A DNA stretch of 64,000 nucleotides from an uncultured Lachnospiraceae bacterium (GTDB lineage Bacteria; Bacillota; Clostridia; Lachnospirales; Lachnospiraceae), in contig CALWLT010000036.1 in the NCBI GenBank assembly GCA_944381615.1, positions 1-64,000 of the forward strand. Direction: 5' to 3'. How positions within the stretch are numbered: position 1 is the first letter of the stretch; each line of letters begins with the position of its first letter. This document shows positions 6,692-58,808 of the stretch, in pieces. The notes beneath the pieces are model-generated. The model saw nothing but the letters and a program-made list of their open reading frames with translations. It made no database searches and had not been told where the DNA came from. The position numbers and the translations under genes are program-made.

Positions 6692-7045
6692 TCAGCGGAT
6701 CCCGGATACGGTGTAGCCGGCGCGCTCGACGGCCTGCGTGATGACGGAATCCTCAACCGGACGGTCCATGGAAATTTCGGCGGTTCCTTTTTTCAGATGG
6801 ACGACGGCGGAGACTCCGTCGATGGAGTTGATGGCTTCCATGACGCGATTGACGCAGTGCTGGCAGCTCATGCCCTCAATCGTAATGGTTTTTCGGGCGA
6901 TCACATGGTCGAGCTTTCTGGGATGCGCCCGGTAGGAGCTGCCTTTGCCGCAGCATCCGCCTTCTCCGCGGAAATGGCCGATGCTGGCCCGGACGGCCGG
7001 GATCAGGATGACAGCTAGGACGATCACAATCAGAATATTTTCCAT
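6692..7045 (-). CDS. Membrane-anchored HMA (heavy-metal-associated) domain protein
   Basis: 117 residues. One N-terminal membrane helix (residues 4-22) is followed by a CC pair at 31-32 and then a complete HMA domain with the metal-binding loop GMSCQHC at 58-64. Free HMA domains of this type are CopZ-like metallochaperones. Here the anchor resembles the small Cys-rich proteins found beside FeoB. GAAGGAGG precedes the ATG by eleven bases. It is transcribed divergently from feoA, and both promoters carry the same palindromic operator at the same position, so it is probably controlled by the same metal-responsive regulator. Whether the ligand is Cu, Fe or another metal cannot be told from sequence. 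Confidence 0.85.
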   Translation of the reverse strand: MENILIVIVLAVILIPAVRASIGHFRGEGGCCGKGSSYRAHPRKLDHVIARKTITIEGMSCQHCVNRVMEAINSIDGVSAVVHLKKGTAEISMDRPVEDSVITQAVERAGYTVSGIR

Positions 7046-7086
7046 TGTTTGTATGCCTCCTTCGGCGTGTAACAGATGGCTTTGTA

Positions 7087-7102
7087 GTTAGATAGAACTA
7101 AC
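7087..7102. promoter_or_regulatory. Operator copy 1, GTTAG-N6-CTAAC
   Basis: GTTAGATAGAACTAAC, extended to an 18-bp dyad by A7086 and T7103. It lies about 5 to 20 bases after the predicted start of the HMA-gene transcript. The pattern resembles metal-responsive DtxR/IdeR-family boxes (TTAGGTTAG half sites); the regulator itself is not in the window. Confidence 0.7.
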
Positions 7103-7113
7103 TCACAGCCCTG

Positions 7114-7142
7114 ATTATACGCTCCTTCCGGACGGATGTCAA
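7114..7142 (-). promoter_or_regulatory. Consensus promoter for the HMA gene
   Basis: On the minus strand: TTGACA (7142-7137), 17 bases, TATAAT (7119-7114). Both boxes match the consensus perfectly. Start near 7107, directly before operator copy 1. Confidence 0.85.
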
Positions 7143-7211
7143 GAAGGGGATGCTCTGAAAAGCCGGAAAAGCCGGAAGAAGAAAAAGTGTCTGCGCGGCG
7201 CAAAAAAATGT

Positions 7212-7240
7212 TTGACAAACGAAAGCGAAGGTGCTATAGT
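7212..7240 (+). promoter_or_regulatory. Promoter for feoAB
   Basis: TTGACA (7212-7217), 17 bases, TATAGT (7235-7240). Start near 7247, directly before operator copy 2. Confidence 0.85.
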
Positions 7241-7248
7241 GAACGCGA

Positions 7249-7264
7249 GTTAGGAAAGACTAAT
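7249..7264. promoter_or_regulatory. Operator copy 2, GTTAG-N6-CTAAT
   Basis: GTTAGGAAAGACTAAT differs from a perfect dyad by its last base. It occupies the same +2 to +18 position relative to the feoA promoter as copy 1 does at the divergent promoter, so a bound repressor would block early elongation or open-complex formation at both. Confidence 0.68.
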
Positions 7265-7283
7265 CGATGGGAGAGGAGAAACC

Positions 7284-7505
7284 ATGATGACGTTAATGGA
7301 AGCGCAGGAAGGAAAAGAGTATCGGATCCGCGAGATCCAGACGGACGACGAGGATCTGGATGCGTTCCTGTTTTCACTGGGCTGTTACAGCGGAGAGCCG
7401 GTTACGGTGGTGTCCCGGCTGAAGAACAGCTGTGTCGTTGCGATTAAGGACGGACGCTACAATATCGATTACCAGCTTGCGGAAGCGATTCTGGTAGAGG
7501 ATTAG
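7284..7505 (+). CDS. feoA: FeoA, ferrous iron transport accessory protein
   Basis: 73 residues, SH3-like FeoA domain (LMEAQEGKEYRIREI at the start, then SLGCYSGEPVTVVSR and an AIKDGRYNIDY strand). FeoA proteins act in the cytoplasm with FeoB and are needed for full Fe(II) uptake. GAGAGGAG precedes the ATG; a second ATG three bases on is equally possible. It is the first gene of the feoA-feoB-Cys-rich operon. Confidence 0.93.
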   Translation: MMTLMEAQEGKEYRIREIQTDDEDLDAFLFSLGCYSGEPVTVVSRLKNSCVVAIKDGRYNIDYQLAEAILVED

Positions 7506-7550
7506 ACGGGCCCGGATCCGTCGGATCTGGAGGCGTTCGTGTCTCTGTTG

Positions 7551-7566
7551 GTTAGCAATTACTAAC
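7551..7566. promoter_or_regulatory. Operator copy 3, GTTAG-N6-CTAAC, between feoA and feoB
   Basis: GTTAGCAATTACTAAC has perfect 5-bp arms and a nearly symmetrical centre. No convincing -35/-10 pair accompanies it, so it may be an auxiliary site or mark a weak internal promoter for feoB. Confidence 0.6.
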
Positions 7567-7604
7567 TTAATGGCAGGTAAATGGAATCAGAGGAGGAGGA
7601 GAAG

Positions 7605-9605
7605 ATGAGAATTGCTTTTGCAGGCAATCCGAACAGCGGGAAAACGACCATGTATAACGCTCTGACCGGAAGAAATGAGAAGGTCGGAAACTGGGCCGGC
7701 GTGACCGTGGAAAAGAAAGAAAGCCCCATCAGAAAAAACTTTTACGAGGGGGGAGAGGAGCTGATCGCGGTCGATCTGCCCGGCGCATATTCCATGTCCC
7801 CGTTTACTTCGGAGGAGAGTATTACCAGCGGCTACGTCAGAAATGAGCATCCGGATGCGATCATCAATATCGTGGATGCGACCAATTTAAGCCGCAGCCT
7901 CTTTTTTACCACACAGCTTCTGGAGCTCGGGATTCCGGTTGTGGTGGCGTTAAATAAGAGCGATATCAACGAGAAGAAGGGCACGAAAATTGATGAGGCG
8001 GCGCTGTCGGAAAAGCTTGGCTGTCCGGTTATCAAGACGGTATCCACAACGGCCGGAGGCCTGGGCGATGTGGTAAAGGCGGCGGTCGAACGGAAAGGAC
8101 AGGGACAGGTTCCGCCCTATGTGCAGGGAAACATCGATCTGACCAGCAAGGAGGCCGTGGAGGAGGCGGATCGCCAGCGCTTTGCGTTTGTCAATAAAAT
8201 TGTGACGCAGGTTGAGACGAGAAAGATTCTGACGCGGGAAAAGAATTCGCAGGATCAGCTGGACGCGGTGCTGACGAATCCCGTATCCGGTCTGATTGTA
8301 TTTGCCTGTGTGATGTTTCTGGTATTCCAGATCTCCCAGGCGTGGGTCGGGCCGTGGATTGCGGATTATCTGGTGGCCGGGATCGAGGGCTTCCAGGGGA
8401 TGGCCGGCGAATGGATGTCCGGCGCGTCTCCGTTCTTGCAGGCGCTGATTGTGGACGGTATCATCGGCGGCGTCGGCGCGGTCGTCGGCTTCCTGCCGCT
8501 CGTGATGGTCATGTATTTCATGATCGCATTGCTGGAGGACTGCGGATATATGGCCCGGGCGACGGTCGTGCTGGATCCGATTTTCAAAAAGGTCGGCCTT
8601 TCCGGGAAATCGGTTATCCCCTTTGTCATCGGAACGGGCTGTGCGATTCCCGGCGTTATGGCCAGCCGCACCATCCGCAACGAGCGCGAGAAGAGGGCGA
8701 CGGCCATGCTGACCTCTTTCATGCCCTGCGGCGCGAAGCTGCCGGTTATCTCCCTGTTTGTGGGCGCGTTTTTTGCGGAACAGGCCTGGGTTGGAACCCT
8801 GATGTATTTCGTCGGTATTTTCCTGATTCTGGTGTGCGCCCTGTTGATCAACAAGGTGGCCGGATATAAGGTAAGAAAATCGTTCTTTATCATCGAGCTG
8901 CCGGAATATAAGACGCCCAGCCTGATGCGCGCGCTTCTCTCGATGTGCGAGCGGGGCAAGGCCTATATCATCAAGGCCGGAACGATCATTCTGGTCTGCA
9001 ACACGGTTGTTCAGATTATGCAGAGCTTCAACTGGAGTTTTCAGCTGGTGGAAGAGGGAATGGAGAATACCTCCATCCTGGCCTCGATTGCGCATCCGTT
9101 CGCCTATGTGCTGGTTCCGATTGTCGGTTATCACGCATGGCAGCTGGCCGCGGCGGCCGTGACCGGCTTTATCGCCAAGGAAAACGTAGTCGGGACGCTG
9201 GCAGTGTGCTACGGCGCGACGCAGTTTATCGATACGGATGAGCTGGCCCTGATGGAGGGAGCCGGCGCGGAGGTCGCTTCGATTTTTGCGATGACCAAGG
9301 TAGCGGCGCTGGCCTACCTGATGTTTAACCTGTTTACGCCGCCGTGCTTTGCGGCCATCGGCGCCATGAACTCCGAGATTAAAAACAAGAAATGGCTGGC
9401 CGGCGGAATCTGCATGCAGCTGGGTGTCGGCTACACGGTCGGATTTGCCGTATATCAGATCGGAACGCTGGTTACGACCGGTTCTGTGGGCGCCGGTTTT
9501 GTCCCGGGCCTGGCGGCCGTGCTTGTGATGGCGGCAATCGTCGTTTATCTGATTCAGAAAACCAACCGGGGGATTGCAGCTGAGTATGCGCTGGATGTAA
9601 AATAA
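7605..9605 (+). CDS. feoB: FeoB, ferrous iron transporter with N-terminal GTPase domain
   Basis: 666 residues, full family length. The N-terminal G domain shows G1 GNPNSGKTT at residues 7-15, G3 DLPGAY and G4 NKSD, followed by a GDI-like helical region. The membrane part has two Gate motifs: GTGCAIPGVMASRTI, then FMPCGAKLPVISLF. It moves Fe(II) across the cytoplasmic membrane. The start at 7605 is chosen because GAGGAGGAGGAG precedes it; an in-frame ATG at 7581 lies before that ribosome site. It follows feoA after 99 bases that contain operator copy 3. This is the intact Feo system; a second feoB at 54-58.5 kb is interrupted. Confidence 0.97.
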   Translation: MRIAFAGNPNSGKTTMYNALTGRNEKVGNWAGVTVEKKESPIRKNFYEGGEELIAVDLPGAYSMSPFTSEESITSGYVRNEHPDAIINIVDATNLSRSLFFTTQLLELGIPVVVALNKSDINEKKGTKIDEAALSEKLGCPVIKTVSTTAGGLGDVVKAAVERKGQGQVPPYVQGNIDLTSKEAVEEADRQRFAFVNKIVTQVETRKILTREKNSQDQLDAVLTNPVSGLIVFACVMFLVFQISQAWVGPWIADYLVAGIEGFQGMAGEWMSGASPFLQALIVDGIIGGVGAVVGFLPLVMVMYFMIALLEDCGYMARATVVLDPIFKKVGLSGKSVIPFVIGTGCAIPGVMASRTIRNEREKRATAMLTSFMPCGAKLPVISLFVGAFFAEQAWVGTLMYFVGIFLILVCALLINKVAGYKVRKSFFIIELPEYKTPSLMRALLSMCERGKAYIIKAGTIILVCNTVVQIMQSFNWSFQLVEEGMENTSILASIAHPFAYVLVPIVGYHAWQLAAAAVTGFIAKENVVGTLAVCYGATQFIDTDELALMEGAGAEVASIFAMTKVAALAYLMFNLFTPPCFAAIGAMNSEIKNKKWLAGGICMQLGVGYTVGFAVYQIGTLVTTGSVGAGFVPGLAAVLVMAAIVVYLIQKTNRGIAAEYALDVK

Positions 9606-9702: not shown

Positions 9703-9912
9703 ATGGCAGACTTCATAGCCGCGGCCATTGTTATTTTGACGGTGGGAGCCGCGCTGCGCTACATCATCCGTGCGAAAAAGAGAGGCGTGCGCTGCATCGG
9801 GTGTCCGGACGCGTCCGGCTGCTGCTCCTGCGGTTGCGGCGCGGCGCACGGGAAGGCGGATGAAGCCGTATGCCGGCCGGATGAAAGGAACAAATCCGTT
9901 TCCGGCGTCTGA
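9703..9912 (+). CDS. FeoB-associated Cys-rich membrane protein
   Basis: 69 residues: one membrane helix (residues 4-22), basic KKRGVR, then a cysteine cluster (CIGCPDASGCCSCGCG). This is the usual form of the small protein encoded behind feoB in Firmicutes, a possible FeoC-like accessory. GGAAAGGAG precedes the ATG. The 97 bases before it contain a 14-bp near-repeat (CGGTTCAGAGAAAC, CGATTCAGAGGAAC). Its role in iron transfer is inferred. Confidence 0.88.
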   Translation: MADFIAAAIVILTVGAALRYIIRAKKRGVRCIGCPDASGCCSCGCGAAHGKADEAVCRPDERNKSVSGV

Positions 9913-23423: not shown

Positions 23424-23966
23424 TTAGCCGAAGTATCTCTCCAGCAGGCCCTTGAAGGCTCTGCCGTGACGGGCCTCGTCTCTTGCCATCTCGTGTACGG
23501 TGTCGTGGATCGCGTCCAGATTGGCGGCTTTCGCGCGCTTCGCCAGGTCGAACTTGCCGGCCGTCGCGCCGTTCTCAGCCTCTACGCGCATCTCCAGATT
23601 CTTCTTGGTGGAATCGGTCAGCACCTCGCCTAACAGCTCGGCGAACTTGGCGGCGTGCTCCGCTTCTTCGTAAGCGGCCTTCTCCCAGTACAGGCCGATC
23701 TCCGGATATCCTTCTCTGTGAGCGACTCTCGCCATGGCCAGATACATGCCGACTTCCTTGCACTCGCCCTCATAGTTGGCTCTCAGATCTGCCATGATGT
23801 CCTCGCTCGCGCCCTGCGCAACGCCGACTACGTGCTCGGCAGCCCATGCCATATCGGCAGCCTGCTCCTGGAATTTGGAAGCGGGAGCGCCGCAGACCGG
23901 ACATTTCTCCGGAGCAGCCTCGCCCTCGTAAACATAACCGCATACCGTACATACAAATTTCTTCAT
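23424..23966 (-). CDS. Reverse rubrerythrin (NADH peroxidase type)
   Basis: 180 residues with the domain order reversed relative to classical rubrerythrin. An N-terminal rubredoxin-like FeS4 site (C6, C9, C22, C25) is followed by a ferritin-like di-iron four-helix bundle with E-x-x-H motifs ([31 protein letters not shown]). Such proteins reduce hydrogen peroxide (and O2 via partner reductases) in anaerobic clostridia. AAAAGGAGAG precedes the ATG. Expression is probably controlled by the neighbouring PerR-type protein, since a TAAT-N-ATTA box overlaps its predicted transcription start. Confidence 0.95.
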
Positions 23967-24061: not shown

Positions 24062-24109
24062 AGTAATGATTACTGATATTAAGATAGCACAAAGCGCCGG
24101 TTCTGTCAA
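24062..24109 (-). promoter_or_regulatory. Reverse-rubrerythrin promoter with PerR-like box
   Basis: On the minus strand: TTGACA (24109-24104), 17 bases, TATCTT (24086-24081). The palindrome AGTAATCATTACT at 24074-24062 overlaps the predicted start. Its core matches the central TAAT-N-ATTA of the Per box (TTATAATNATTATAA). Confidence 0.72.
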
Positions 24110-24570
24110 CTGGAAATTTGAAAATTTTCCGGGTCAAATGATTCTGCGCCGCCTTTGATCCGCCCGCCCCCCGCAGACCGCTTTCCTTCCTGCTGGCAGT
24201 CCGCGCAGACGCCGTAGAAAAAGATCGTGTGATCCTCGATGGTTCCCTCGACATGGACGGCGGCCTTCTCTTCCAGACCGGACGCAGCCTCCATGGGGAT
24301 GTCCGTGATACGGCCGCAGCGGCGGCAGACAAAGTGATAGTGCGGGGATGTATCATAGTCGAAATGATCCGTGCCGTCGCCGCAGGAGAACTTGCGGATC
24401 TCCCCCAGATCGACGAGCAGGTTCAGATTCCGGTATACCGTGCCCAGGCTGATGTTGGGAAACTGTTCCCGAATGCTGGTGTAAAGAGCGTCCGCGGTCG
24501 GGTGATCCTTGCGTCTCATCAGGCAGGCTTTGATCGATTCGCGCTGGCGGCTGTACTTTAACGTTTTCAT
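24106..24570 (-). CDS. perR: Fur-family regulator, probably PerR
   Basis: 154 residues. The N-terminal winged helix (TADALYTSIREQFPNISLGTVYRNLNLL) binds DNA. The structural zinc site is C82-x2-C85 and C122-x2-C125. The regulatory metal site includes D71, H77 and H79, plus D90 at the position where PerR has Asp104 and Fur has Glu, which favours PerR. PerR senses peroxide by metal-catalysed histidine oxidation and then releases DNA. GTGAGGAGAG lies before the ATG. The C-terminal ~30 residues are an unstructured extension. Boxes before itself and before reverse rubrerythrin suggest autoregulation and a local peroxide regulon. Confidence 0.85.
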   Translation of the reverse strand: MKTLKYSRQRESIKACLMRRKDHPTADALYTSIREQFPNISLGTVYRNLNLLVDLGEIRKFSCGDGTDHFDYDTSPHYHFVCRRCGRITDIPMEAASGLEEKAAVHVEGTIEDHTIFFYGVCADCQQEGKRSAGGGRIKGGAESFDPENFQISS

Positions 24571-53867: not shown

Positions 53868-54701
53868 TTACAGGATCAGGCGGATCAGGAGGCAGAGAGC
53901 GCAGCCGATGCCAAGCGGCAGCAGGACGGAGGCCAGCGTCCACAGAAGGCTACCGGTTTCCCGGCGGATGGTCAGGCAGGTGGCAAAGCAGGGCCAGTGA
54001 AAGAGGCAGAACACCGCGGTGCACAGGACTGTCTGAACGCTCCATCCGTGGGCGAGAAAAAGCTCTGCCAGCGGGGCCGCGCCGGCGATTTCCGCGAGCG
54101 CCCCGTCCTGCAGATAGCCCATGACGATGATGGGCAGGACGATCTCCCCTGCGGGAAAGCCGAGGAGAAAGCCGGTCAGGATCATGCCGTCCATTCCCAG
54201 AAACCGTCCGGCCGGGTTAAGGAACGCGGCCAGGCGGCTTAAGAGAGGCAGTCCGTCCGGCGCGCAGTTTCCCAGAAACCAGATGAGAAGGCCGGCCGGA
54301 GCGGCGGCCGCCGCTGCGCGGGTTAGGACGAACAGCGTGCGGTCCGCGAGGGAGCGCAGGATGATTTTCCCTGCCTGAGGCCTGCGCCAGGGCGGCAGCT
54401 CCAGCGTGAAGGACGAGGGGACGCCCCGCAGGACGGTGCGCGATAAGAGCAGGGAGGAAAAAAGCGTGGCCAGGATGCCGAGCAGGATCAGCCCGGTCAG
54501 GGCGGCCGCCGCCAGGAAGGATCCCGGCGCCGATCCCCCGGCCGTGAGGGAGGCAAGGGAGATCAGCAGAATCAGCGTGGGGAAGCGGCCGTTGCAGGGA
54601 ACCAGCGAGTTGGTCAGGATGGCAATCAGGCGTTCTCTCGGCGAGTCGATGATCCGGCAGCCCATGACGCCGGCCGCGTTGCAGCCAAACCCCATGGCCA
54701 T
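53868..54701 (-). pseudogene. feoB: 3' half of interrupted feoB2
   Basis: 277 residues of the C-terminal membrane half of a FeoB, beginning MAMGFGCNAAGVMGCRIIDSPRERLIAI, with CNGRFPTLI as the second Gate motif and several further helices. It lacks its own ribosome site: the first ATG lies on the insertion junction. The matching 5' half lies at 57268-58545. Joining codon ATG 57345-57343 to codon GCC 54698-54696 restores an uninterrupted frame. In its present form it is probably untranslated, or makes only a membrane fragment. Confidence 0.9.
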
Positions 54702-54705
54702 GCGG

Positions 54706-54718
54706 CGTCAACACTTCG
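54706..54718 (+). repeat. Element end: 13-bp inverted repeat, left copy
   Basis: CGTCAACACTTCG, exact reverse complement of 57325-57337. It overlaps the stop codon of the recombinase. A 12/13 direct copy (CGTCAACGCTTCG) lies 26 bases further in at 54732-54744 within the recombinase 3' end. Confidence 0.85.
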
Positions 54719-55694
54719 GCGCTTCGGGAGGCGTCAACGCTTCGGATGGTGTCTGGCGTTTCTGGCAGCGGCGCGAGGCGAGCTGCTTTTGACAGAGCGA
54801 AAACAGCTTCTCTGAGACGATGGCCGGGTGCGTATCCGGGACGGCAATCCGCTGTTCGGGCGGGACGGCCAGCGTGACGCGGCTCTTAAATGAGAGCTTG
54901 CGCGTTTTTCCCTGGATAAGCGTTCCGGTGTAGACCGGATTGTGGAGCAGCTTGATGATGGTGTTGGCGCTCCAGCGCCGGGTGCAGCGCGGATTCTGGC
55001 CGGTCGTATGAAAGAGCTCCAGACGGCGCTCGGACGGGCAGGGAATTCGGTGTTCATTTAAGAGGGCGGCCAGCTGCGACGGGCGCGCGCCGGCGGCCGC
55101 CTCGCGAAAGAGAAAGGCCACGACGGGAGCTGCCTGCGGATCCGGGATCAGCGTGCGGCGGGAGCCGGCGCACGGCATGTAGCCGTAGGGGGCGAAATTG
55201 CCGATGTAGGATCCCTCCTCCATACGCACCCGCAGGGCGGCGCGGATTTTGCGGGAAATGTCGCGGGCGTACATTTCGTTGATCACGTTGCGGAAGGGGA
55301 CGAGATCGGGGCTAGAGAGGGCGGAGTCGTAGCCGTCCCCGACCGCGATGAAGCGCACGCCGCGCGAGGGAAAAAAGGATTCGGTGTATTCGCCGGTGCG
55401 GATGTAGTCGCGGCCCAGCCGGGAGAGGTCTTTGGTCAGGATGAGATCAATTTTTCCCTGCTCCACGTCGCGGATCATGCGGCGAAAGGCGGGGCGGTCG
55501 AAGGTGGTTCCCGAGTAGCCGTCGTCGGCGTATTCGCCGATCACGGGGAAATGGTGTTCCCGGGCGTAGGAAAGCAGAAGTTTTCGCTGGTTGGAAATGC
55601 TCAGGCTTTCGGTTTCCCGCTCGTCGTCCCGTGAGAGGCGCAGATAGAGGGCCCCGGCGGACGGCGCCGCGGGCAGACCGGTGGTGTGATTCAT
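54708..55694 (-). CDS. Serine recombinase, short form
   Basis: 328 residues. The resolvase catalytic domain has the nucleophile Ser21 in YLRLSRDD, then DDGYSGTTFDRPAFRRMI and LTKDLSRLGRDY. The Recombinase domain (about 165-265) includes APYGYMP, LNEHRIPCPS and the WSANTIIKLLHNPVYTG helix-turn. Full-size large serine recombinases continue with a zinc ribbon and coiled-coil (450-550 residues in total); here the protein ends soon after HPAIVSEKLFSLCQKQL, so those parts are missing or minimal. The start follows GGGAGGAT. The stop lies inside the element's terminal repeat. It is the obvious candidate for integration and excision of the element. Confidence 0.92.
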   Translation of the reverse strand: MNHTTGLPAAPSAGALYLRLSRDDERETESLSISNQRKLLLSYAREHHFPVIGEYADDGYSGTTFDRPAFRRMIRDVEQGKIDLILTKDLSRLGRDYIRTGEYTESFFPSRGVRFIAVGDGYDSALSSPDLVPFRNVINEMYARDISRKIRAALRVRMEEGSYIGNFAPYGYMPCAGSRRTLIPDPQAAPVVAFLFREAAAGARPSQLAALLNEHRIPCPSERRLELFHTTGQNPRCTRRWSANTIIKLLHNPVYTGTLIQGKTRKLSFKSRVTLAVPPEQRIAVPDTHPAIVSEKLFSLCQKQLASRRCQKRQTPSEALTPPEAPKC

Positions 55695-55751
55695 GGAATA
55701 TCCTCCCGGAAATGAAATCAATTATGTTTATGCGGTAGAATGGAGATTTAT

Positions 55752-57278
55752 ATGTCAGTACAGATGACGGGGCTTTGCGGGAAAGGAACGGCGCTGATCT
55801 GGAAGCAGTGCAATGACGAGCTGTTTGCGGAAGGGCTGCATCTTCTGGAAGAGGCGGCCTTTGCGGGAGACGCGCAGGCCTGGTTTTTCCTGGGACGGTG
55901 CTACAGCTGGGGCGACGGAGCGGTGGGCTTCAGCGAGAAGAAGGCCCGCGAGTGTTATGAGAAGGGAACGGAGGCGGGAAGCGCCCGCGCCGTGCTGGGG
56001 GCGATCCGCGCCGGGCAGTTTGATGAAGAAATGCGGGCGCGCTCGCTTCTGACGCCGGAGGAGAGCTTCCGGGAGCTGAAGGAGGCCGCGATGGAGGGGG
56101 ACGCCTTTGCCGCCTGGCAGCTGGCGGAGGCGTTTGAGTGGGAAAATCTGTCAGAGGTTCTGCCGGAGGACGAACGGCGGCGGGAGCTCTGTTTTTCCTG
56201 GTACCGGAAGGCGGCGGAGGGCGGAATCGTTCCGGCCATGGTAAAAATGGGGAAATGTTTTCAGCGCGGGCAGTATGTCTCGCCGGATCGGGGCCGTTTT
56301 CTCGAGTGGGCGGACCGCGCGGCGGCGCAGGGAGACGTCTGGGGCCTGTATCAGATGGGGCTTTATCATCAGGAGCAGGGGCATGCGGACGCCGCATTTC
56401 AGTATTTTGCCGCCGCCTCCTATCAGGGGGATGCGAAGGCGCCGCTTTTGCTGGGACGGATGTATCTGAGCGGGGAGGAGGGCGTGCCGCGCGATGTGAA
56501 GCGGGCGGTGGAGTCCTTTGAGCTGGCGGCTTCCCGGGACGAGCCGGAGAGCCTGGCCGAGCTCGGCCATATTTTCTACCGCGACGAGGTAGTGGAGCGG
56601 GATGACGAAAAGGCGCTTTACTGGTATAAGAGGGCGTATGCGGCCGGTCAGAAAAGCGCGGCGCTTCCTCTGGCGCACTTGGTCATGCGCGGGGCGGATC
56701 TGGCCGCGTACCAGCAGGCGCACAAGCTTCTTCTGGAGGCGGCAGAGGAGGAGACGGACGGCCAGGCGGCGCTGGCGCTGGGAAATCTGTACCGGGACGG
56801 TCTTCTGGGCGTGCCGGATATGGAGCAGGCGCTGGAGTGGTATGAGAAGGGCGCGAAGCAGGAAAACCCCGAGTGCATGGAGCTGTTGGGCTGCCTGTAT
56901 TTTCAGGGGGAAGAGGGCGTTGAGACGGATTACCAGAAGGCGTTCTACTGGCTGAGCCGCTGCCTGGAAGCGGGGACGCTGCAGTCCTGCTCCAAGCTGG
57001 CATACCTCTATATGAAGGGCGAGGGCTGCGAGGAGAATGAGGAGATGGCGATCCGCCTGTTCGAGCGGGCCGCGCAGTCGGAATACGACGGATACGCCCT
57101 TTATGAGCTGGGCTTTCTCTACGAGCGGCGCGGCAGCGCGCAGGGCGGTTCGCCCGAGGATCTGGATCAGGCGGCTGATTATTACCAGCGCGCGATCGAG
57201 ATGGGAAACGAGAGTGCGGTCCGCCGGTTTTCTCATTTTAAGAAAAGCCTGTTCGGGCGCTGGAAGATCACGTACTGA
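55752..57278 (+). CDS. Sel1-like repeat protein carried by the element
   Basis: 508 residues made almost wholly of Sel1-type helical repeats of ~36 residues (units such as AWFFLGRCYSWGDGAVGFSEKKA, LLLGRMYLSGEEGVPRDVKRA and ALGNLYRDGLLGVPDMEQA), roughly ten to twelve copies. There is no signal peptide or membrane segment. Sel1 arrays are protein-interaction scaffolds. GGAG six bases before ATG 55752 decides the start over an ATG twelve bases upstream. It is the only cargo of the element. A role in controlling the recombinase, in host interaction or in defence is possible, but none is shown by sequence. Confidence 0.87.
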   Translation: MSVQMTGLCGKGTALIWKQCNDELFAEGLHLLEEAAFAGDAQAWFFLGRCYSWGDGAVGFSEKKARECYEKGTEAGSARAVLGAIRAGQFDEEMRARSLLTPEESFRELKEAAMEGDAFAAWQLAEAFEWENLSEVLPEDERRRELCFSWYRKAAEGGIVPAMVKMGKCFQRGQYVSPDRGRFLEWADRAAAQGDVWGLYQMGLYHQEQGHADAAFQYFAAASYQGDAKAPLLLGRMYLSGEEGVPRDVKRAVESFELAASRDEPESLAELGHIFYRDEVVERDDEKALYWYKRAYAAGQKSAALPLAHLVMRGADLAAYQQAHKLLLEAAEEETDGQAALALGNLYRDGLLGVPDMEQALEWYEKGAKQENPECMELLGCLYFQGEEGVETDYQKAFYWLSRCLEAGTLQSCSKLAYLYMKGEGCEENEEMAIRLFERAAQSEYDGYALYELGFLYERRGSAQGGSPEDLDQAADYYQRAIEMGNESAVRRFSHFKKSLFGRWKITY

Positions 57279-57324
57279 TCTGCAGCAGGATCTGTCTGCC
57301 AAAAAACGGAAAGAGCGCTTCCGG

Positions 57325-57337
57325 CGAAGTGTTGACG
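57325..57337 (-). repeat. Element end: 13-bp inverted repeat, right copy
   Basis: CGAAGTGTTGACG on the + strand, pairing with 54706-54718. It lies five bases inside the CATG core, versus three at the other end. Confidence 0.85.
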
Positions 57338-58389
57338 AAGCACATGGTAAGGCACTGCTTTCCGCAGGAATGGCAGCGCCGGAAGGCGCAGTCCATGTTG
57401 TAGGCGGCCCGGGGCAGGTAGCCCAGATCCTCCAGCAGGGTAAAAAGCGGAAAGAAGATGGCCATGGGAGGCAGCATGACGGCGATGACCCAGGCGGTCA
57501 CGCGGTACACGCCCCGGACCGCGCAGTCCGTCACGGCCTCCGGCAGGCCGGCCCCGGTAAGCAGGCTAAAAAGGCGCGGTTCCAGAGCGGTAAAAAAGCG
57601 GCTTAACCAGGCGGAGGGGACGGAAGCGCCGGCGATGGTCAGCCAGAAAACGGCCAGCAGGAGGGCCAGCATCAGGACGGCGCCCCAGATGGGGCCGGTT
57701 ACCAGCCGGTCGACCGCTTCCTGGCGTCGGCGAAAGTCCGGCCGGGTAAAGGTTACGGCGCGTTTCACCGTTTCTTCAGGGGAAAAATCCGGAAGCAGTT
57801 CCGGATTTTTTTGATGCTCCGGGTTCCGGCATCCGGCAGGAAGCGGACATTCATCAGGAAGCGGGCATCCAGGCGAAAGAAAAAGCTGCGCCAGCGTTTC
57901 CTTCAGCTGTCTTACGGAATGCCGGTCCCTGGCGGCGCAGGGGATCACGGGGAGGTTCAGCGTCTGCGCAAGAAGCGGAAAATCAATCCGGATCCCGTTT
58001 CGCTCTGCCTCGTCGCAGAGGTTGACGCAGAGCGCGGTGCGGCCGGGTTTTCGCGGGCCCAGATCCCGGATCTGTTTTAAAAAGCGCAGGCCCCGTTCCA
58101 GGCAGGAGGCGTCGCAGACGACGACGAGGAGATCGCGCGTTCCGGCCGCGATGCGGTCGCGGGCGATGATTTCCTCGGCGGAGCGGGCCTGCAGGGAGTA
58201 GGTGCCCGGCAGATCCAGGACCGGAATGGTTTTTTCCCGGAAGCGGAAACTTCCACGGGCGCAGGCGACGGTTTTTCCGGCCCAGTTTCCCGTTTTCTGG
58301 TGCAGGCCGGTCAGGGCGTTAAATAGCGTGCTTTTTCCTACGTTGGGGTTGCCGGCCAGGATGATGCAGGGCGGCTCCTGAGACAGCGC

Positions 58390-58515
58390 TTTTGGCATGA
58401 CGGCCGCGCGGGCCTGATCTGACAGAGGCTTTTTTTGCATGATCGCCGCGCGGGTCCGGTCTGACAGAAGCTTTTTTGGCGCGGCCGCCGCGCGGGCCCG
58501 GCCCGGCAGAAGCTT
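58390..58515 (-). repeat. Three tandem 42-bp repeats encoding 14-residue units in FeoB2
   Basis: Units KLLPGRARAAAAPK, KLLSDRTRAAIMQK and KPLSDQARAAVMPK occupy residues 11-52 of feoB2. The basic, Ala/Arg-rich units form an N-terminal extension before the G domain. DNA identity between copies is high enough to suggest recent tandem duplication. Confidence 0.85.
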
Positions 58516-58541
58516 TGCCGGCATTTTGACGCGGCGCGGGC

Positions 58542-58808
58542 TCACGGGGTTCCTCCCGCCGGATCCGGCCCCGGCGTTTCCTCTACGAAGACCAGATCGG
58601 CATCGTCCCGGCGCAGGGCAATGACAGCGCCCCGGATCAGGAAGGCGGCCAGGCGGCCGTTTTTCTTGCGCAGGATACATGAAACCGGAGCTCCCGGCTC
58701 AAATCCGAGATCCAGAAGGCGGCCGGCAATCGGTTTCTGATCGGACAGCCAGACGATTTTCGCCTGCCGTCCGGCAGGAAGGCTGCTTAACGGATAAATC
58801 ACAGGCAT
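58542..58808 (-). CDS. feoA: FeoA-like protein of the second Feo locus
   Basis: 88 residues with the FeoA SH3-like fold: PLSSLPAGRQAKIVWL, then RLLDLGFEPGAPVSCILRKKNG, IRGAVIALRRDDADLVFVE. It is closer to classical FeoA (LxxLGFxPG) than the feoA at 7.3 kb. GGATG lies close before the ATG; the start is moderately certain. Its stop overlaps the GTG of feoB2, so the two are translationally coupled. No GTTAG-N6-CTAAC operator is visible upstream. Confidence 0.87.
   Translation of the reverse strand: MPVIYPLSSLPAGRQAKIVWLSDQKPIAGRLLDLGFEPGAPVSCILRKKNGRLAAFLIRGAVIALRRDDADLVFVEETPGPDPAGGTP

Follow-up and report, generated by a model that had tools for sequence, protein, structure and literature searches.

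The divergent HMA-feoAB locus

The window, which is the whole 64-kb stretch of DNA analysed, carries a small HMA-domain protein gene and a feoAB operon that diverge from a shared intergenic region, with three palindromes and two promoters among them. These features are as follows.

6692..7045, minus strand: small HMA protein with an N-terminal hydrophobic stretch, a GGCC motif and an HMA domain with CxxC (PF00403, E 1.9e-13)
7086..7103: putative operator 1; 16-bp core 7087-7102 GTTAGATAGAACTAAC; 18-mer AGTTAGATAGAACTAACT; exact RGTTAG-N6-CTAACY
7114..7142, minus strand: sigma-70-type promoter of the HMA gene, TTGACA-17-TATAAT, 12/12 consensus
7212..7240, plus strand: sigma-70-type promoter of feoA, TTGACA-17-TATAGT, 11/12 consensus
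7248..7265: putative operator 2; core 7249-7264 GTTAGGAAAGACTAAT; 18-mer AGTTAGGAAAGACTAATC; one half-site base off
7284..7505, plus strand: feoA (PF04023, E 3.3e-15)
7550..7567: putative operator 3; core 7551-7566 GTTAGCAATTACTAAC; 18-mer GGTTAGCAATTACTAACT; in the feoA-feoB gap
7605..9605, plus strand: feoB (PF02421, PF07670 twice, PF07664); start read from the sequence
9703..9912, plus strand: probable FeoB-associated Cys-rich membrane protein (PF12669, E 1.1e-4, below the curated cut-off)

The pattern GTTAG-N6-CTAAC/T, which a sequence-only reading of this DNA had placed at 7087, 7249 and 7551, was found at all three positions, with no further match elsewhere in the window; 100 dinucleotide shuffles produced no match. 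The same reading had put the first two sites just downstream of consensus divergent promoters, and this is confirmed: operator 1 lies just 3' of the HMA-gene promoter on the minus strand (12/12) and operator 2 just 3' of the feoA promoter on the plus strand (11/12). The distance from the -10 hexamer to the start of the palindrome is 11 nt on the HMA side and 8 nt on the feoA side, so that both palindromes would overlap or follow the transcription start. For these two putative operators, such a placement is the classical position of a repressor. Operator 3 starts 55 bp 5' of the ATG at 7605, the likely start of feoB. The longest feoB ORF opens at 7581, and the ATG at 7605 is favoured by a ribosome-binding site, the GGAGGAGGAG stretch before it.

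Genome-wide distribution of the sites and predicted regulon content

Exact matches to RGTTAG-N6-CTAACY occur 8 times in the 2.58-Mb assembly, compared with 0.10 expected under a first-order Markov model built on 107 kb of the genome; the reversed-pattern control gave 0 matches in this genome. The copy at 7248 is a ninth site with one mismatch, and every other match in the genome has two. All nine sites flank genes of metal-uptake, metal-handling or metal-starvation type, if an ABC-transporter pair is counted as metal-type by its conserved company only. The genome-wide search proposed earlier thus shows enrichment beside metal genes. The six sites outside the window sit in three places.

Contig C3 (L010): two sites 5' of a DUF2325 gene, then a DtxR-family gene
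Contig C14 (L012): two sites 5' of DUF3793 and flavodoxin genes
Contig C6 (L011): one site 5' of the ABC-transporter pair and one 5' of a ZIP transporter gene; the run also has AraC, DUF6110, P-type metal ATPase and TetR genes

A search for DtxR/MntR-family genes, another check suggested by the sequence-only reading, returned a single one. This only PF01325 gene found in the genome lies 0.6 kb behind the two sites of contig C3, with DUF2325 in between. The assembly is 93.9% complete, which makes gene absences provisional, and another regulator may be missing from it. With nine metal-flanking sites and the single dtxR gene behind two of them, the earlier proposal of one repressor for both feoAB and the HMA gene is well supported by comparison of sequences; examined at this level for enrichment near metal genes and for an unrelated owner of the site, it survived. 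The three palindromes of the window are very probably docking sites of the cell's only DtxR-type metal repressor.

Membership in the predicted regulon would link the small HMA protein and the orphan families DUF2325, DUF3793 and DUF6110 to starvation for divalent metals, and one operator for one DtxR-family regulon amounts to a map that can be tested. Our literature search on how these gut Clostridia control iron returned little and no such regulon, and among the papers listed for DUF2325 and DUF3793 nothing connected either family to iron. The DUF2325 gene (L010:5540-5830), 3' of two sites, is apparently cotranscribed with dtxR; in the relatives G002 and G025, DUF2325 has a site with no dtxR gene adjoining (L135, L179).

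In two relatives, G001 and G005, a site lies just behind a promoter-like sequence 5' of DUF6110 and metal ATPase genes (L131, L140). The predicted geometry is one of repression, which is odd for an exporter-like pump. According to the available text of one study, genes for DUF6110 proteins are usually found with those for P1B6 ATPases, and the proteins are relatives of PacL1, a partner of a zinc exporter (PMC9374683).

Conservation and co-occurrence in relatives

In 31 genomes (this one and 30 relatives) the site was found 101 times, compared with 7 times for the reversed pattern, and it was present in 22 of the 31. A homologue of a target from our genome lies within 3.5 kb in 29 of the 53 site regions among the sites listed (manual count), the targets counted being feoA/feoB, HMA, DUF2325-dtxR, DUF3793-flavodoxin, DUF6110-ATPase, ZIP and the ABC pair. 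The other 24 of these 53 regions, by the same manual count, have no such homologue, and their sites may be further targets or chance matches. By eye, some of the 24 sites are 5' of single ABC ATPases, small membrane proteins resembling ECF S-components, or a NifH-like protein. Two sites in relatives fall inside open reading frames, one of 650 aa and one of 274 aa.

Loci gathered independently of the motif, fetched by the DtxR or the HMA protein, gave a consistent picture. A spacer of 6 is found in 64 distinct GTTAG-Nk-CTAAC sequences and any other spacer from 0 to 13 in at most 2 (own loci included). With the own loci excluded, 19 of 21 FeoB starts are preceded, within 900 bp, by a site that is exact or has one mismatch, and in seven of the 21 such a site starts 38-60 bp 5' of FeoB, like operator 3. 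Among 80 named dtxR loci, feoB starts within 1 kb upstream on the opposite strand in 16 (manual count), while in 66, some of which end at a contig edge, the 1.5 kb upstream contain no exact match. In relatives dtxR and feoAB are frequently divergent, with the site between them.

In a set of 196 genomes from the order, those with a DtxR match (n=144) have 2.74 sites per genome and those lacking one (n=52) have 0.87 (Mann-Whitney p 7e-7, for genomes that share ancestry and are not independent); the reversed control gave 0.67 and 0.63, respectively. Exact sites are entirely missing from 36 of the 144 DtxR-positive genomes, and at least three sites occur in 5 of the 52 DtxR-negative ones. These dtxR loci and genomes without a site imply that in many relatives the site has drifted or dtxR lies in another place. 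Two related genomes, G347 and G383, contain the reversed control pattern 9 and 10 times, respectively, perhaps as another repeat family or operator.

The HMA protein and the question of iron or copper

The sequence-only reading had assigned the HMA protein to iron rather than copper physiology, and the outcome is divided: the assignment holds for regulation, whereas the chemistry of the protein may be that of either metal. Among NCBIfam models, the CopZ models score below cut-off and TIGR00003 scores 62.2 vs a cut-off of 62; the N-terminal hydrophobic stretch is an addition relative to CopZ. The predicted control of the HMA gene mirrors that of feoA across the shared intergenic region. We compared its 30 best relatives, drawn from 200 genomes of the family (57 with a match). 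These 30 loci contain 16 sites that are exact or have one mismatch, three of them at our own locus, vs one for each of four scrambled palindromes. Taken together, the sequence comparisons support placing the HMA gene under an iron-type repressor.

The protein may nevertheless work as a copper chaperone and have no more than a metal-starvation promoter signal in common with feoAB, its job being, for example, to guard against misplaced copper at low iron; we regard this as a substantial alternative, though less likely than not. Its CopZ-like HMA domain with CxxC agrees with such a role, as do the CPC-type (copper-type) ATPases that adjoin 6 of the 30 best loci. Against it, feo genes adjoin 12 of the 30 (own included), one relative (G011) has a feoA-feoB-HMA-ZIP run behind a single site (L158), and in an HMA tree of weak support our copy clusters with the Feo-linked proteins and not with the CPC-linked ones. 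In two further cases among the 30 best loci the neighbouring ATPase shares about 59% identity with that of contig C6.

The candidate DtxR-family regulator and the sensed metal

The candidate regulator is a protein of 143 aa with matches above cut-off to PF01325 (E 3e-9) and PF02742 (E 2e-14); only these two N-terminal domains were matched, and no third, SH3-like C-terminal domain was found. In sequence it is nearest, among solved structures, to the MntR proteins of E. coli and B. subtilis and then to IdeR, and it scores below the NCBIfam MntR equivalog cut-offs (85.5 of 153 bits and 63 of 138 bits). Named relatives include proteins of Clostridium transplantifaecale (76% identity), Enterocloster bolteae and Extibacter muris, which suggests a host among the Lachnospiraceae-like gut Clostridia. 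The aligned metal ligands are Asp9, Glu12, His78, Cys100, Glu103 and His104, and across 21 sequences all of them are invariant except Asp9, which is Asn in many.

A PF01475 search of the genome found a single Fur-family gene, which lies in the window next to a rubrerythrin-like gene:

24106..24570, minus strand: Fur-family gene; best NCBIfam match PerR, below cut-off
23424-23966: rubrerythrin-like gene, named by eye

No Fur iron regulator was found in the 93.9% complete genome, the sole Fur-family gene being PerR-like. In Fur-regulated systems, feoAB is repressed in a metal-dependent manner. Such repression is predicted here as well, in a genome where, unlike in those systems, only a PerR-like protein was found, and the DtxR-type regulon would explain the metal control of feoAB.

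Fe(II) is favoured as the sensed metal because of the target genes. The same regulator might instead sense mainly Mn(II), as an MntR-type protein with feoAB as one target among divalent-metal transporters. We consider this unlikely, even though the nearest solved relatives are the E. coli and B. subtilis MntR proteins, the two-domain length agrees, Asp9 is as in MntR and a ZIP transporter is among the targets. Against it, in the portions of the structural work available, Glu99 of BsMntR and Cys102 of CdDtxR occupy the position to which Cys100 aligns (PMC4805248). The targets include feoAB and flavodoxin, with more feo genes in relatives, and they stand beside the lack of a Fur-type iron regulator among the genes found. 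The same source names Asp19, Cys108, Glu111 and His112 as the primary-site residues of PgMntR, a protein that binds Mn(II) as well as Fe(II) (PMC4805248); Asp9, Cys100, Glu103 and His104 align with these residues, so that the shared Asp/Cys pair also weakens the case for Mn(II). Since PgMntR-like ligands bind both metals and Asp9 is variable, the metal cannot be read from the sequence.

That the site belongs to another regulator (PerR, or one of the TetR and AraC proteins encoded on contig C6) is very improbable. TetR and AraC genes do lie near two sites and PerR is in the window, but among the sites listed TetR matches occur near only 3 of 53 site regions and AraC matches near 5 of 53 (22-36% identity), and it is dtxR that accompanies feo and the site. 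PerR was rejected as the owner, since dtxR travels with the site and since GTTAG-N6-CTAAC presumably differs from the Fur/PerR-type box. That the palindromes are chance matches or RNA hairpins with no binding protein can practically be dismissed: they are short and a few are intragenic in relatives, but 8 were found vs 0.10 expected, the spacer is fixed at 6 and the same genes are involved across families.

Proposed mechanism and operator class

In the DtxR-type reading, which we favour, the palindrome is quite likely the operator of a single, autoregulated DtxR-family metalloregulator that controls a small, conserved metal regulon. From the sites, promoters, targets, single dtxR gene, conservation and co-occurrence observed in the sequences we infer binding and repression, with Fe(II), possibly also Mn(II), as the metal. 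A metal-bound dimer of the regulator would sit on GTTAG-N6-CTAAC at or just past the transcription start and block initiation. When the metal falls, the regulator would leave and feoAB, the HMA protein, ZIP, the ABC pair and DUF3793-flavodoxin would be expressed; the regulator's own DUF2325-dtxR unit, with its two sites, would be derepressed likewise. Operator 3 might silence an internal promoter or serve as a roadblock to transcription into feoB.

Comparison with known systems suggests that the palindrome works like a one-dimer DtxR-family operator. A study of IdeR, as far as its text was available, proposed a one-dimer consensus TTAGGNNNNCCTAA beside a two-dimer 19-mer TTAGGTTAGSCTAACCTAA (PMC8464063). 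The present site shares the TTAG-N6-CTAA spacing of TTAGGNNNNCCTAA, on which the class assignment is based, and has a different outer base, while the inner G...C is not conserved. The full two-dimer IdeR 19-mer consensus was considered as well and is not what the sites show. The system resembles IdeR/DtxR of Actinobacteria in protein family, TTAG...CTAA half-sites and one-dimer spacing (PMC8464063, available portions). It differs in that the C-terminal SH3-like domain is lacking, the inner GG/CC is not required, the outer G/C is conserved and the sites are not overlapping two-dimer 19-mers of the TTAGGTTAGSCTAACCTAA type.

SloR of Streptococcus mutans has operators of 6-6-6 inverted repeats, in tandem and overlapping promoter elements, according to the available text (PMC12096823). 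The present sites are likewise 6-bp inverted repeats with a 6-bp spacer, but their half-site is AGTTAG/GGTTAG instead of the AATTAA of SloR; the protein is also shorter here, and feoAB and flavodoxin are among its predicted targets. PgMntR of Porphyromonas gingivalis is similar in its Asp, Cys, Glu and His primary site, an MntR/DtxR hybrid in the portion of the source available (PMC4805248), whereas our regulator has no C-terminal FeoA domains. The MntR proteins of B. subtilis and E. coli are two-domain regulators as well and, by sequence, the nearest solved structures, but in the present protein Cys replaces the bridging Glu and the score is below the NCBIfam MntR cut-offs.

The second Feo locus and its split feoB2

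A second Feo locus lies at the other end of the window; its feoB halves were located by tblastn with FeoB of eight relatives and our own FeoB1.

53868..54701, minus strand: C-terminal half of feoB2 with its own ATG (MAMGFGC...) (PF07664, PF07670)
54702..57339: insertion in feoB2, from Pfam matches and junctions
54708-55700, minus strand: serine recombinase in the insertion, 330 aa (Pfam)
55752-57278, plus strand: Sel1-repeat gene in the insertion (Pfam)
57340..58545, minus strand: N-terminal half of feoB2, GTPase and first membrane part (PF02421, without Gate or FeoB_C)
58542..58808, minus strand: feoA2 (PF04023), with no operator nearby

The sequence-only reading had noted that this locus lacks the site and would escape the control. 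The first part stands, as no operator was found at the locus even with up to two mismatches; the escape has to be qualified, because its feoB is split by an insertion. The N-terminal half ends in ...CLTMC and the C-terminal half starts with MAMGFGC... 2.6 kb further on, and this second half rules out that feoB2 is merely truncated. The same insertion occurs at the same codon in G001, G004, G006, G007 and our genome, so that feoB2 is split in five of eight genomes of the genus; G002 and G003 have it uninterrupted (CLTMAMGFGC), and no match came from G005. In all five split copies, the recombinase stop codon lies 6 nt before the ATG of the C-terminal half.

Between G004 and G007, dS is 1.2-1.8 and dN/dS 0.04-0.13 for the N-terminal half, Sel1, recombinase and C-terminal half, in the only informative pair, as dS was saturated or nearly so in two others. 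These values in all four frames disfavour plain decay of the split feoB2, for the G004-G007 pair. The insertion seems to have been inherited with feoB2 and all four frames kept. The junctions are compatible with in-frame rejoining. Inverted repeats of 13 bp are found at the element ends in the window copy only (0/4 other copies). The short recombinases measure 320-343 aa, compared with about 545-590 aa in G073, G500 and G290, and they appear to be without the usual C-terminal region, an argument against easy excision.

The two Feo systems of this genus may differ in their control, a suggestion that we put forward tentatively and think less likely than not. In it, feoAB1 would be governed by DtxR-type operators and feoB2 by a domesticated recombinase element, either through in-frame excision (a skin-like switch in some cells or conditions) or as a two-piece FeoB whose C-terminal half is translationally coupled to the recombinase. 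If switched, the split feoB2 would be an unusual way to regulate iron uptake; a literature search for recombinase-split feoB found no description.

Other serine recombinases adjoin feoB halves in G114, G073, G500 and G290 (L289-L292) and in G023 (L284), loci that belong to other genera and one other family. These cases make feoB look like an attachment site that is used repeatedly. In G006 the feoB2 element also has a 729-aa gene (L282:7458-9647), which by eye is of the ribosomal-protection (TetM-like) type.
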